From: Candidatus Nealsoniibacteriota bacterium
GTDB lineage: Bacteria; Patescibacteriota; Minisyncoccia; Minisyncoccales; GWA2-46-15
Assembly (NCBI GenBank): GCA_016207115.1
Contig: JACQQI010000024.1
Location: 1 to 34,360, forward strand
Direction: 5' to 3'
DNA length: 34,360 nucleotides
The notes under the pieces are model-generated. The model saw only the letters and a list, made by a program, of their open reading frames with translations, was not told where the DNA came from and ran no database searches. Shown here one piece after another: positions 17,782 through 23,937 of the stretch. Made by a program: the position numbers and the translations under genes. Every line of letters begins with the position of its first letter. Position 1 is the first letter of the stretch.

Positions 17782-18846
17782 TTAGCGGGTAAAAGGATTC
17801 TTGGCGCCCACGACCTGGAAGTGAACATGGCAACCCGTCGACAAACCGGCGCCAGCCATACCCCTCCCGCCGCCCATGTAAGCGATGATTTGTCCTTGAG
17901 AAACCTCGTCGCCCGGATCGACAATCGCGCTCAAAAGATGACCGTAGAAAGTCACCACGCCGTTGGGGTGCAGAATGGTGATGTGGTTGCCGGCGCCGCC
18001 AAAAGCCCAGCGAGACGTGGAGGTCGTCAGTTTCACTTTTTGAACCCGGCCCGCGGCCGCCGCATAGATAGGCTCGCCGCACTGACCGCGACTAAAATCA
18101 ATGGCGTTGTACCAGTGCAAGCCTTGGGTGACCCGGCAAGGGGCGCCGATGGGACAAATGAAATAGCCGGCGGTCAAGGGTGCCCAGGTTGAGGTCGGTT
18201 TCTTGATGGCTGGAGATGGCAGAAGGCCATGCGGAACGATGACGATGTCGCCGGCAAAAACCTCATTCTCGTTGGTCAGTTCGTTAAAAGCGATGGTTTC
18301 GTTAAGATTCCCCTTGTATTTTTTGACGATGTCGCTCAGGGTGTCGCCCGGGCCAACGACGTACATGACACCCGAAACGGGCAGGATGACCAGTTTTTTA
18401 CCCGCCGAAATTACCGAGTTCTTGTTTAAGTTATTGGCCCAGAGAACCGTTTCTAGAGAAATATTGAACTGTTGGGCAATAGATGAAAGAGTGTCGTTTT
18501 CGGCCACCGTATATTCGATCACGCCACCTCTGCGGCCCTCTAGCTCTTCTTCGGTGCCCGAAAGAGTGGCCAAAACCTGAGGCTTGACGATGCCCGTCGG
18601 CAAAACGGCCTTTAAGCTGTTTTTCTGAATCAGGTAGAAATCCGGCAGCTGGAGAATGCCGGCGGAAGGACCCAGAGCTAAGTAATGGCTGGAATTGTTT
18701 TGAGAAGAAGGTTGGGTCAGGCCGGCCGAAAAGACCGCTTGGCCTACCGGTTCGGGTAAAAACAGTGTTAAAACGAGCAAAAACGCGGCCAGACCCCCTA
18801 AATAAAGCAAGGGGTCCTGACCGGATCCCTGAAATCGATGGATCAT
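17782..18846 (-). CDS. Membrane-anchored LysM-LysM-M23 peptidoglycan peptidase
   Basis: 354 aa from ATG at 18846 (GGGG ribosome binding site); the ORF-track start is a TTG four codons up. One N-terminal membrane helix (about 12-32), two LysM domains (starting YTVAENDTLSSIAQQF and YVVGPGDTLSDIVKKY, about 115-205) for peptidoglycan binding, and an M23 metallopeptidase domain (about 240-350) with GLHWYNAIDF, GHLL and CHVHF. The last gives the HxH zinc ligand; in the first motif the usual HxGxD reads HWYNAID, a known spacing variant of this subfamily. It would cut peptide cross-links at the cell surface. Cell-wall remodelling for division or pilus passage is inferred. Confidence 0.9.
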   Translation of the reverse strand: MIHRFQGSGQDPLLYLGGLAAFLLVLTLFLPEPVGQAVFSAGLTQPSSQNNSSHYLALGPSAGILQLPDFYLIQKNSLKAVLPTGIVKPQVLATLSGTEEELEGRRGGVIEYTVAENDTLSSIAQQFNISLETVLWANNLNKNSVISAGKKLVILPVSGVMYVVGPGDTLSDIVKKYKGNLNETIAFNELTNENEVFAGDIVIVPHGLLPSPAIKKPTSTWAPLTAGYFICPIGAPCRVTQGLHWYNAIDFSRGQCGEPIYAAAAGRVQKVKLTTSTSRWAFGGAGNHITILHPNGVVTFYGHLLSAIVDPGDEVSQGQIIAYMGGGRGMAGAGLSTGCHVHFQVVGAKNPFTR

Positions 18847-19824: not shown

Positions 19825-22086
19825 ATGGTTGGAGCTAATCTCAAAAACTTCCCTCGGTGGGTCAAAATTTCTCTGCTCGTTTTGGTTTTCGTCGGCCTGA
19901 GCCTGCCCCTCTATCAGGCCCGGGCTTTCTTGGGTCCGCTGGCCGGATTGATCGCCGCCAACATTTTCGCCTTTGCCCTTCAACTCGTCGTCATCATCAC
20001 CTGGCTGATTTTGCTCGTCTGCTACGCCATTCTCATCTGGGTTTTGAGTCCGGCTTTCATCACTCTGCCCTACACTTCGGGCGGCATCGTCGACATTGGC
20101 TGGCCGATCACCCGCGACCTGGCCAACATGGGTTTTGTCTTCGCCCTCTTGGTCATCGGCGTGGCCACGGCTCTGCGCTATCCGCGGGACGAAGGCTACA
20201 AAGTGAAAAAGGCTCTGCCGAGCCTGATCGGCATCATCCTCCTGGTCAATTTTACCCCGGTCATCACCGGCGTCATCATGGACGCGGCCAACATCGTCAT
20301 GGTCTTTTTCATCCAGGAGGTTTCTGGCTTCCAGTCTTTGATCACCATTCTGGGAAATCAATTCAGCGCCGTGGTTTCTTCTTTCACCAACCTTCAAGGA
20401 ATTCTCACCGGCCAGATCGCCCTGATTGCCCGCAGCCTGGTCCTGATTGGCTTCAATCTGATGACGGCTATGTTCTTACTGCTTTTCGCCGTCATTTTCA
20501 TCATGCGCTACGTGGCCATTTGGATGCTCGTCATCCTCTCGCCCCTGGCCTTCTTTGCCTACGTTCTGCCCGGGACGAGGAAATATTTTACGGCTTGGTG
20601 GAGTCAGTTTCTCCAGTGGGCTTTTGTCGGCGTCACGGCCGCCTTTTTCTTGTACTTGGCCGAGCAGTTGCTCGTGACCATGTCGACGACACCCTTCATC
20701 GCCGCTCCCACCCCGCCGATCGGCATTCTCCAGCCATTGACCGACATTTTTAATACCGTCATGGTCTACGCCGTCATCGAAGCTTTCCTCGCCTTTGGTT
20801 TTTTTGCTTCCTTGTCGAGCGGAGCCGTGGGCGCCGGCGCCGTCATTTCCACGGGCAAGCAATGGTCCACGGCCGCGGCCAAATCTGTGGGCAGCTGGGC
20901 CGGTAAGACCGGTAAGGGCTATGCCCGCAAGGCGCTGGAAGAAAGCGGCATCGCCAAAGGCGCCATGGACATTGCTCAAAGGATGGCGACCATGAAAACG
21001 CCGGGCACGGGCGTGCCGGGCGTCAAGGGCACCTTGCAGCGAGCGGCCGGCGGCGTTTTCGCCGAAGGCATCCGCGTGGTTGGCCGGGGCGGAATGACCT
21101 TCCTCGAATCGGGGCGCAAAGAGGTTGGCGAGGCCGAAGGCGAAGTCGAAAAGGCTTCGGTGGACATGGTCATTTCTAAATTCAGATCGGCCGCCGAATG
21201 GTCAAAGAAAGTCGGTTATCTCAATCGCTTGATCAAAAAGGGAGACCTGGGCGACGCCCTGAAGAAGGGCCTGACCGAAGGGGAGATTAATCAGGCCTTG
21301 GTCCACGCTCAGCGATATGACTCTCACCAGGAGATTCTCAACGCCATGCCTCATCTGCCCGAAGCTCAACAGATTATTAGAAGAGACGCGGCCGTACCTC
21401 GCGTCGCGGCGGCGGCCGCGGCTCTGGCTATTTCTCCTTCGGCCGTCACTCCCGCCCAAATGGCCGCCGTCACTCCCGCCCAAATAGCGGCCGTAACTCC
21501 GGTCCAGGCGGCAACGGCGAGAAGGTCTCTCACCACAACTCAAATTGGAGGAGTTACTCCGGCTCAACTGGGTGACGCTTATAGAGATAATGTTTTCAGA
21601 AAAATGAAGCCGGAGCGAGCCGGCCAGGTCAGTTCTAATATTTTTACTGATCCGATGCTTTCCGAAGCGGCGATCCGCGGGTGGGACGGAAGACACGTTG
21701 GGAAATTTGTCGAAACACAGGGACAAGCAGCCATGCAATCAATTGAAGATACAATTGACAGATTAACTCCGCCGACACCGGTGAATGTCGGACACGTAAG
21801 GGCGGCGGCGGCGGCGTTAGCAACTGGAGCAAGAACCCCGATTGAAATTGTCGCAGTAACGCCAGCAGACATCAGTAAAATAACGCCAGATCAAATCACA
21901 GCCATGATCCCTTCTTTAACCCCCGCTCAAATAGCGGCTGTAAACCTAAATCAGGTGGCAGCCTTAACTCCCGATCAATTATCAAGATCCATAGACAGAA
22001 AATTGTGGTTAGAAACCAACAATCCGCGATTGCGACAATATCTTCAGTCTTCAGTCGCAAGAACCCTAGGATTTACTACCGTCTAA
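19825..22086 (+). CDS. VirB6/TrbL-like channel protein with long C-terminal repeat tail
   Basis: 753 aa. N-terminal ~330 residues carry a signal-like helix and about seven more membrane helices, including a polytopic core of the VirB6/TrbL type (e.g. the WMLVILSPLAFFAYVLPG segment in the TM region) forming the inner-membrane channel. The C-terminal ~400 residues are soluble, Ala/Gly-rich then repetitive: 8-residue units of the form [VLI]TPxQ[IM]AA, three near 540-565 and a second cluster near 678-726. The first cluster is a 24-bp DNA tandem repeat near 21447. The last ~350 bp are more AT-rich and have different codon use. Followed by a bidirectional terminator, so transcription ends here. Confidence 0.82.
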   Translation: MVGANLKNFPRWVKISLLVLVFVGLSLPLYQARAFLGPLAGLIAANIFAFALQLVVIITWLILLVCYAILIWVLSPAFITLPYTSGGIVDIGWPITRDLANMGFVFALLVIGVATALRYPRDEGYKVKKALPSLIGIILLVNFTPVITGVIMDAANIVMVFFIQEVSGFQSLITILGNQFSAVVSSFTNLQGILTGQIALIARSLVLIGFNLMTAMFLLLFAVIFIMRYVAIWMLVILSPLAFFAYVLPGTRKYFTAWWSQFLQWAFVGVTAAFFLYLAEQLLVTMSTTPFIAAPTPPIGILQPLTDIFNTVMVYAVIEAFLAFGFFASLSSGAVGAGAVISTGKQWSTAAAKSVGSWAGKTGKGYARKALEESGIAKGAMDIAQRMATMKTPGTGVPGVKGTLQRAAGGVFAEGIRVVGRGGMTFLESGRKEVGEAEGEVEKASVDMVISKFRSAAEWSKKVGYLNRLIKKGDLGDALKKGLTEGEINQALVHAQRYDSHQEILNAMPHLPEAQQIIRRDAAVPRVAAAAAALAISPSAVTPAQMAAVTPAQIAAVTPVQAATARRSLTTTQIGGVTPAQLGDAYRDNVFRKMKPERAGQVSSNIFTDPMLSEAAIRGWDGRHVGKFVETQGQAAMQSIEDTIDRLTPPTPVNVGHVRAAAAALATGARTPIEIVAVTPADISKITPDQITAMIPSLTPAQIAAVNLNQVAALTPDQLSRSIDRKLWLETNNPRLRQYLQSSVARTLGFTTV

Positions 22087-22124
22087 AAGATTTTTCCTCC
22101 TTAGTTTCTAATTTATCTTTTGTG

Positions 22125-22157
22125 CAAAAACCGGCTGGGCTTCCAGTCGGTTTTTGG
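22125..22157. terminator. Bidirectional rho-independent terminator
   Basis: CCGGCTGG-GCTT-CCAGTCGG (8 bp, one G-U) flanked by AAAAA and TTTTT. It serves the plus-strand virB6-like gene and the minus-strand small ORF/SPFH cassette. Confidence 0.85.
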
Positions 22158-22193
22158 TTTGGTTCAATGGCGACGGTAGTCGCGCCAAGCACA

Positions 22194-22442
22194 TCAACGC
22201 TTAGGCCGATAGTCGTTGAGGTTGACGAGATCACTGACGCGCGCTTCCTCGAGAAGCCACTCTAGTGCTGCACTAGCGGCCACTAGCGTCGGGTATTCGC
22301 CTAGTATGACCCAGTCCGTGGCTGTTATCTGAGCGGTGATACCGCAGCGACCACCAGGCTCATTAACTTCGAACGTCTGGATCGTCAGAGCGCTTCCGAG
22401 ATTGAGGAGAACGCCTCGCTGTGTGCGGACAAACGTAGTCAT
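22194..22442 (-). CDS. Small protein of unknown function downstream of the SPFH gene
   Basis: 82 aa from the second ATG at 22442. The ribosome binding site AAGGAGG sits 7 nt before this ATG but only 1 nt before the ORF-track ATG, so the internal one is chosen. The sequence, mostly beta with a helical end (RGVLLNLGSA, then WVILGEYPTLVAASAALEWLLEEA), has no membrane span and a single Cys. I do not recognise a domain. It follows the SPFH gene by 15 nt on the same strand, so it is probably co-expressed with it. Confidence 0.7.
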   Translation of the reverse strand: MTTFVRTQRGVLLNLGSALTIQTFEVNEPGGRCGITAQITATDWVILGEYPTLVAASAALEWLLEEARVSDLVNLNDYRPKR

Positions 22443-22457
22443 GGTCATTCCTCCTTT

Positions 22458-23315
22458 CTACGGGGTGGTTTTTCCGCCCGGGCTGATGCCCAAGAGGCCC
22501 AGAGCCGAAATGAACTGGTCAAACCCAGTAGCGCCGTAGACGAGGCGCTTGGACTCGACCGCCTGGAGGAACTTCCAGAGATCCACCGCCAGATTCTTGG
22601 CCTCATCTGGCGTGTACTGGCCAGTCGCTTCCAGTTGTTTTCTCAGCTCATCCACCGTGCCGAAAATGGTAATCGCGCGCTTGGCCGCATCGATCACCGC
22701 GGCATCCTTGGCTTTCTGGGCTTGCAGGGGCAGTTGACGCGCCGCGATGACGTCGGGCGGCAGGTCAACGTCTTCGAGGGGAGCGCGTTTCAGCTCCAAG
22801 CCCTTTTCGGCGAGGAGCGCCACGAGGTCAGCGAGGGCCTGCGGCGAAATCTGGACGGGGAGCTGGGTCAGGAGATCTCCGCGCATCGCCAGGGCCTGGT
22901 CGATTGTCTTGCCATGGAACAAGGGACGGAGAGCGTTTTCGATCATGCTCTCGGCCCACGGCTCCAGATTGGCAACCGTGTAGACCGATCGCCAGACGTC
23001 GGCAGGATTGTCTCTGACGACAATATAAGCTGTCGCCTCGACACTCGAGGTGCCATCTTGAAAATCAATCTTTTCTCCCTTGAAGAGGGGGAGAGATCGT
23101 TCCAGGATCGACACCTTCTTGCCATCGCTGACTCTTTCCAGCCAGTGCAAGACGAACGTCGGCCCTGGTCCCCGGACGCCGACATAGCGACCCAGGCGCT
23201 CGACCACCCAGCGCTCCTGTTGGGGGATCTGCTGGAAGCTATTCCAGAGGTACCAAAGCCCGAAGATGAAAAGCCCGACCGCTACCACCAAGACGAACAG
23301 TAAAGCTGCGAACAT
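22458..23315 (-). CDS. SPFH/band 7 (stomatin-like) membrane-anchored protein
   Basis: 285 aa. N-terminal membrane helix (3-25) followed by an SPFH domain: IPQQERWVVERLGRYVGVRGPGPTFVL (42 onward) is the classic QxxVVERLGR opening, then SVEATAYIVVRDNPADVWRSVY and a C-terminal helical region (about 185-285) ending near GKTTP. Stomatin-type proteins form membrane-microdomain scaffolds and often pair with an NfeD protein, not seen here. It is read against the surrounding secretion operon and has a strong promoter (TTGACA/TATTAT) and AAGGAGG ribosome binding site, both unusual for this genome. Likely acquired; function in this cell unknown. Confidence 0.88.
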   Translation of the reverse strand: MFAALLFVLVVAVGLFIFGLWYLWNSFQQIPQQERWVVERLGRYVGVRGPGPTFVLHWLERVSDGKKVSILERSLPLFKGEKIDFQDGTSSVEATAYIVVRDNPADVWRSVYTVANLEPWAESMIENALRPLFHGKTIDQALAMRGDLLTQLPVQISPQALADLVALLAEKGLELKRAPLEDVDLPPDVIAARQLPLQAQKAKDAAVIDAAKRAITIFGTVDELRKQLEATGQYTPDEAKNLAVDLWKFLQAVESKRLVYGATGFDQFISALGLLGISPGGKTTP

Positions 23316-23390
23316 GTGTGCCTCCTTATCCTTATTGAGTTGACAAGTTGCTTGATTCCGATTGAAGAGAACGCCTCCTCATTGTCCCAA

Positions 23391-23419
23391 ATAATAACAG
23401 GTTTTCTCGTATTTGTCAA
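23391..23419 (-). promoter_or_regulatory. Strong promoter of the SPFH cassette
   Basis: Minus-strand TTGACA (23419-23414), 17-nt spacer, TGT-TATTAT (-10 core 23396-23391), +1 near 23384. The leader is ~70 nt and contains a 16-codon open frame (ATG 23382 to TAA 23332) just before the AAGGAGG site; its role is unknown. Confidence 0.75.
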
Positions 23420-23429
23420 GATCAATGTT

Positions 23430-23459
23430 TTGGCTTGTGATTGAGTTTCGTGATATAAT
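23430..23459 (+). promoter_or_regulatory. Promoter of the PrgI-VirB4 operon
   Basis: TTGGCT, 18-nt spacer, extended -10 TGA-TATAAT (core 23454-23459). +1 near 23466, giving a ~25-nt leader to the ATG at 23491. It is back to back with the SPFH promoter and shows the secretion operon restarts here. Confidence 0.7.
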
Positions 23460-23490
23460 TAACGAAGTTAACTACTCCAACAACAAAACC

Positions 23491-23937
23491 ATGGCTGACT
23501 ATACCAAAGAGCAATTGTGGAAACTATACGAAAAACTGCCTTCCGATCTGAAGGAAGCGATTTTCTCCGCCGACAACGCCGATCATATCGCGGACATCTG
23601 CCGCCGCAACTCTTTGCCGACAGAATTGAACTCATCCCTGGCTAAAATTGCCGGCGATGTCCTGATGGGTCTTTTGCTGCCGGGAGATTTCCAAGGGACA
23701 ATCGAGAAAGAATTAAAGTTAGAAAAATCCCTGGCCAAGAAAGTCGGCCAAGAAGTCAACCGTCTGATCTTTTTCCCGGTCAAAGACAGTCTGAATCTGC
23801 TCAACAAGATTGAGGCTGGAGCAGAAGAAACGACGACAACCAAGGCGGCTCCGGCGAGGGCAGTAGAAGAGCCGGTGCCCGCGCCCAAAAAAGAAAGAAT
23901 ATCAAAAGCCGATACCTATCGCGAACCAATTGAATAA
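23491..23937 (+). CDS. Conserved-looking helical protein preceding prgI, unknown
   Basis: 148 aa starting MADYTKEQLWKLYEKLPSD; the ORF-track start at 23413 lies upstream of the predicted promoter -10, so the internal ATG is used. The N-terminal ~95 residues are amphipathic helices (LPSDLKEAIFSADNADHIADICRRN, then EKSLAKKVGQEVNRLIFFPV), followed by a low-complexity Thr/Ala/Pro-rich tail. No membrane helix or Cys pattern. First gene of the operon prgI-virB4, so a cytoplasmic accessory of the secretion/pilus machine is plausible. Confidence 0.75.
   Translation: MADYTKEQLWKLYEKLPSDLKEAIFSADNADHIADICRRNSLPTELNSSLAKIAGDVLMGLLLPGDFQGTIEKELKLEKSLAKKVGQEVNRLIFFPVKDSLNLLNKIEAGAEETTTTKAAPARAVEEPVPAPKKERISKADTYREPIE

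Follow-up and report, generated by a model that had tools for sequence, protein, structure and literature searches.

The segment between positions 22087 and 23490 of the window, a stretch of 34,360 nucleotides that is one contig of the source genome (G000; 476 kb, 27 contigs), most probably (about 0.8) is a self-contained transcription unit that was acquired horizontally and inserted in a T4SS operon in the lineage of G000 and its sister genome G002. An earlier note on this DNA had described the segment as an acquired module, and this description was well supported by the gene order, GC content and the statistics of promoters and Shine–Dalgarno (SD) sites.

The insert as seen in the sequence was confirmed to be real. 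It extends from the stop codon of plus-strand virB6 (19825–22086; ORF listing and sequence) to the ATG at 23491 of the next ORF of the T4SS block and, according to the ORF listing and a family search, contains only two minus-strand genes. The first is an SPFH/Band_7 gene coding for 285 aa with an N-terminal hydrophobic helix (22458–23315; PF01145, E = 1.6e-15) and the second is a small ORFan gene (22194–22442). On the other side, the plus strand continues with a conserved T4SS-block ORF of 148 aa from its ATG (23491–23937; tblastn matches in G001, G002 and G003), a prgI-like gene from 23944 and virB4 from 25023 (both from the ORF listing); the start of the conserved ORF is placed at about 23491, and the ORF list gives TTG 23413. 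The ORFs and the sequence confirmed the claim that two minus-strand genes lie between plus-strand virB6 and the ORF/prgI/virB4 block. The surroundings of the insert are T4SS and housekeeping genes. No transposase is present in the insert, whose genes are the two ORFs alone, and no inverted repeats were seen in it by eye besides the terminator.

The minus-strand genes have a near-consensus promoter, as claimed, TTGACA-N17-TATTAT (23391–23419, minus strand; TTGACA at 23414–23419, TATTAT at 23391–23396), matching 11 of 12 consensus letters and located 75 nt upstream of the SPFH gene. An extended -10 promoter, TTGGCT-N18-TATAAT with TG, directed toward the T4SS block, was read from the sequence at 23430–23459 on the plus strand (TTGGCT at 23430–23435; N18; TGATATAAT, -10 at 23454–23459). 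It corresponds to the separate promoter at 23430 that had been proposed to re-initiate the locus and presumably is active. In G002, the same places are occupied by TTGACA-N17-TATTGT for the SPFH gene and by a plus-strand counterpart with TATAGT. The opposite side of the insert is closed, as the earlier note had stated, by a bidirectional intrinsic terminator, AAAAACCGGCTGG-GCTT-CCAGTCGGTTTTT (22126–22155, both strands), with a stem of 13–14 bp, placed between the small gene and virB6.

Both genes of the unit carry well-spaced AAGGAGG sites. For the SPFH gene, AAGGAGG-N5-ATG (23321–23327, minus strand) has a spacing of 5, and both motif and spacing are identical in G002. The start of the small gene sits close behind the SPFH stop codon and has its own AAGGAGG (22450–22456, minus strand). 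ATG 22442 (82 aa, spacing 7) was considered the better start than ATG 22448 (84 aa) because the latter lies only 1 nt from the motif. The computed duplexes with the canonical anti-SD were -12.5 and -16.4 kcal/mol for the two insert genes versus -0.9 for prgI, -0.5 for virB4, -4.0 for virB6, +0.6 for the 23491 ORF and -7.6 for the 24374 ORF, in agreement with the claim that the neighbours lack strong SD sites.

The same locus was compared in the relatives. In G002, whose VirB4 is 94% identical, virB6 is followed by the insert and then by the same downstream ORF, with the SPFH gene in the site and orientation and behind the promoter seen in G000; the G002 contig ends inside the locus, and the T4SS block is rejoined where this contig overlaps the following one. 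The distance from virB6 to the 23491-type ORF is 44 bp in G001 and 18 bp in G003, which represents the empty site. An insertion shared by most close relatives and of typical codon usage, named in the earlier note as the observation that would speak against acquisition, was not what this gene-order comparison gave: the insert is carried by two of the four congeners having the locus. In G002, an element of ~130 bp with inverted ends CCCCGTAGGAAAT was also noticed between the SPFH promoter and the next ORF (stretch L027, about 385–520), with a related copy at G002:C4:88436. In G003, virB4 is split by ~2 kb in one 1272-codon frame near the P-loop (G003:C7:3831-7598), probably by an intein.

Both carriers are metagenome bins, and G002 has ~4% contamination and contig breaks inside the locus, so that an assembly chimera or contamination was considered. 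The junctions and the matched divergence are common to two separately assembled species, which makes this explanation scarcely credible. A viral origin was rejected because searches of viral contigs and of phages gave no relatives.

The SPFH gene has a GC content of about 60% in both carriers, the genomes of which have 51% (G000) and 44% (G002). In G000, its 59.8% compares with a gene mean of 51% and ranks 353 among 356 genes, and in G002, its 59.7% compares with a core mean of 46%, its GC3 being the highest among 306 orthologues. The gap in GC3 between the two copies was 0.002, among the 16 smallest of the 306 orthologues (mean 0.093). The per-codon usage was ordinary for G000 (z -0.3), and thus of the deviations in GC and codon usage that had been suggested for checking, the former was found and the latter was not; the deviation of the gene is one of GC and not of codon choice.

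The amino-acid identity of the two SPFH proteins is 88%, with dS of 0.87 and dN/dS of 0.095, similar to the values for PrgI in the same pair of genomes (dS 1.06, dN/dS 0.075). Such a dN/dS of about 0.1 indicates that the SPFH gene has been kept and is functional. The promoter and 5' leader are well conserved between G000 and G002, and the identity at four-fold sites was 0.63 versus a mean of 0.53 for core genes. As the two copies have diverged about as much as core genes, the gene could also be an old resident, and the GC kept at 60% with nearly equal GC3 indicates either gain before the split without amelioration or exchange afterwards. Judged from these sequences, the insertion is not recent and would either predate the G000/G002 split or have been exchanged around it; a recent single transfer was contradicted by the dS of about 0.9.

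The SPFH gene might instead belong to the T4SS locus as an accessory part of ancestral origin, lost in G001 and G003 and never imported; this would agree with the purifying selection and the core-like divergence. However, the flanking genes are tightly joined in both G001 and G003, and the gene keeps a GC of 60% inside a genome of 44% GC. Moreover, no close relative of the protein was found in GTDB genome contigs besides G002, the best other match among 60 genomes from the genus and the order reaching 33% identity, and matches in 380 genomes of the phylum were only weak. An ancestral gene is therefore very unlikely.

The SPFH domain was recognized well above the cut-off (PF01145, 58 bits versus 23.6), and in a profile search the protein matched QmcA (8z5g, E = 1.4e-11) and also stomatin. 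A helix at 2–28, the putative membrane anchor, is predicted in a model of low confidence (pLDDT 47). By family, the protein is most likely a membrane-anchored QmcA/stomatin-like oligomeric scaffold. It shares with QmcA/stomatin-type SPFH (Band_7) proteins the N-terminal hydrophobic helix followed by the SPFH domain, but it is distant in sequence, lacks a known operon partner and is encoded in a T4SS locus. No partner of NfeD or protease type is located next door, the small ORF having no Pfam or NCBIfam match. For the small protein, PADLOC likewise gave no match, nothing significant was found in PHROGs, and no relative was detected in six congeners or in 380 genomes of the phylum. A defence function was rejected since PADLOC gave no match, and an assignment of function from structure was rejected because of the low-confidence models (pLDDT 47 for SPFH and 50 for the small protein).

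The signals of the insert were then viewed across the genomes. Among conserved genes, AAGGAGG-led starts were found in 2 of 411 in G000 (one being the SPFH gene) and in 4 of 434 in G002, which is the chance level; a reversed-motif control gave 5 of 411 conserved genes in G000. For the two genomes together, such starts precede 13 of 320 accessory versus 6 of 845 core genes (p = 2e-4), a comparison resting on a heuristic start choice and a single sister genome. In G000, near-consensus promoters were present for 6 of 10 SD-led non-core genes versus 12 of the 129 core genes with free upstream space (p = 3e-4), and the promoter enrichment for SD-led genes of G002 was not significant. The upstream regions of conserved genes pair worse with the anti-SD than control regions do. 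The SD-led carriers are species-specific ORFans missing from the syntenic site of the sister; many of them lie in intergenic gaps whose counterparts in the sister are short, and they end in strong hairpins.

Two further SD-led loci were noted. The SD of a 67-aa ORF at G000:C26:2565-2768 is extreme, AAAGGAGGTGATCC, and is complementary to the entire canonical 16S tail. At G002:C30:17769-20951, genes named by eye as VWA-like, PP2C-like and kinase-like lie in a row, all SD-led and the last two with consensus promoters.

Strong SDs and promoters could be a native device, used by singly transcribed genes of high expression, instead of foreign marks. The AAGGAGG and its spacing, kept between G000 and G002 over a dS of about 0.9 together with the well-conserved 5' leader, would fit such a device, as would the partial pairing that CCUC still allows. 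The conserved singly transcribed genes, however, are without these signals (2 of 411 for AAGGAGG, 12 of 129 for promoters), and the carriers are the species-specific ORFans, which makes a native device improbable.

The 16S rRNA of the order gave further information on the SD sites. None of 81 resolved 16S rRNA 3' ends contained CCUCC. The tails of G002 (C7:229-273) and G005 (C14:9931-9975) are GGATCACCTCATTTT, with CCUCA, and they were used to deduce the anti-SD of G000, since the G000 assembly is without a 16S 3' end. One real canonical 16S tail in the order was seen in G182 (G182:C33), possibly as contamination, and exact GGATCACCTCCTTT matches in G000, G016, G165 and G166 were rejected as 16S tails because of the wrong context. 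In G001, the 16S 3' tail is located ~500 bp beyond the matched part (G001:C2:72361-74330), which is probably due to an intron or insert. The computed pairing of the SPFH leader falls from -12.5 kcal/mol with the canonical tail to -6.2 kcal/mol with the G002-type tail, and the conserved genes show no SD signal with either tail. With CCUCC in none of the 81 tails, the AAGGAGG sites fit a ribosome that the lineage has apparently lost, and a mismatch between the SDs of the insert and the ribosome of the lineage is probable.

The loss of the anti-SD has been described in Bacteroidetes, Mycoplasma and insect symbionts, in which SDs are reported to vanish too (PMC3522020, PMC6107228). As in those bacteria, CCUCC is missing here from the 16S rRNA and SDs are missing from the core genes; the difference is that canonical SDs persist on species-specific genes. 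A search of the accessible literature found no report of anti-SD loss in this group, which is not proof that it is unreported.

The first 20 bases of the terminator constitute the repeat AAAAACCGGCTGGGCTTCCA, which occurs once in G000 and three times in G002, always at this locus; with up to 3 mismatches allowed, no further copy was found in the genus. The G002 locus contains two further, different inserts (a zinc-ribbon ORF of 91–110 aa and an ORF of 72 aa) parted by copies of the 20-mer. Since these copies separate different genes at one site, the site represents an insertion hotspot. At G000:C15:17942-18845, exact 41-bp direct repeats with a terminator flank an SD-led 231-aa gene (18089-18784) next to a tRNA. 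At G002:C7:7118-7567, a repeat of 22–34 bp (CAAACAGGTTCTAACGTCGTCC...) surrounds a single cupin-like gene, and it was seen again between two other single genes (G002:C6:894-915). The 20-mer and the 41-bp repeats are hints of insertion at terminators, and most units are without such repeats.

These repeats, namely the 20-mer between the successive G002 inserts, the 41-bp terminator repeats and those of ~30 bp around the cupin gene, could also mean that the locus is an integron-like array of mobile cassettes that are exchanged by site-specific recombination at terminator-borne sites. Such an array is nevertheless doubtful: direct repeats of at least 14 bp are missing from the flanks of most SD-led genes, the repeats vary by locus, no integrase was noticed, and the units bring promoters, which integron cassettes do not. 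Flanking repeats occur at few loci only, and for this reason mobility of the integron type or bounded by repeats was rejected as the general rule. The likeness to integron gene cassettes lies in different short genes following one another at one site with a repeat ending in a hairpin between them, whereas the SPFH unit has a near-consensus promoter, its repeat is locus-specific, and no attC boxes were visible by eye in the repeats seen. Phage morons are also similar: they too are self-contained, with a sigma-70 promoter and a terminator of their own and an odd GC, and are inserted among genes of a conserved cluster, but the SPFH unit lies in a bacterial T4SS operon without adjoining phage genes or relatives in viral contigs.

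In the preferred reading, that of an acquired transcription unit, transcription from the minus-strand promoter would cover first the SPFH gene and then the small gene and would end at the bidirectional terminator, which would also insulate virB6. Since the operon is interrupted by the insert, the divergent plus-strand promoter beside it would restart the ORF–prgI–virB4 block. The unit would be one of the genome-wide species-specific genes that carry a canonical SD and, in many cases, a promoter and terminator of their own. With CCUCC lost from the 16S rRNA of the lineage, its SDs seem to stem from donors whose ribosomes were of the ordinary kind, and in this genus they could pair partly with the remaining CCUC (computed at about -6 versus -12 kcal/mol). 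No donor lineage or recombinase was found for the unit. A tentative and less likely possibility is that a pool of single-gene units, the SPFH unit among them, circulates in this order of small-genome bacteria that has lost the anti-SD. These units would insert site-specifically at terminators, and their canonical SDs would be kept because they are selected for, or because the units often pass through cells whose ribosomes are ordinary, for instance partner bacteria.

If true, the acquisition would be an example of how inserted DNA can be accommodated in a core secretion operon, as a replacement promoter comes along with it. If the loss of CCUCC holds for the order, imported genes in such genomes could be recognized in the sequence simply by their canonical SD, and it could be asked whether such imports are translated by a ribosome unable to pair with them fully.
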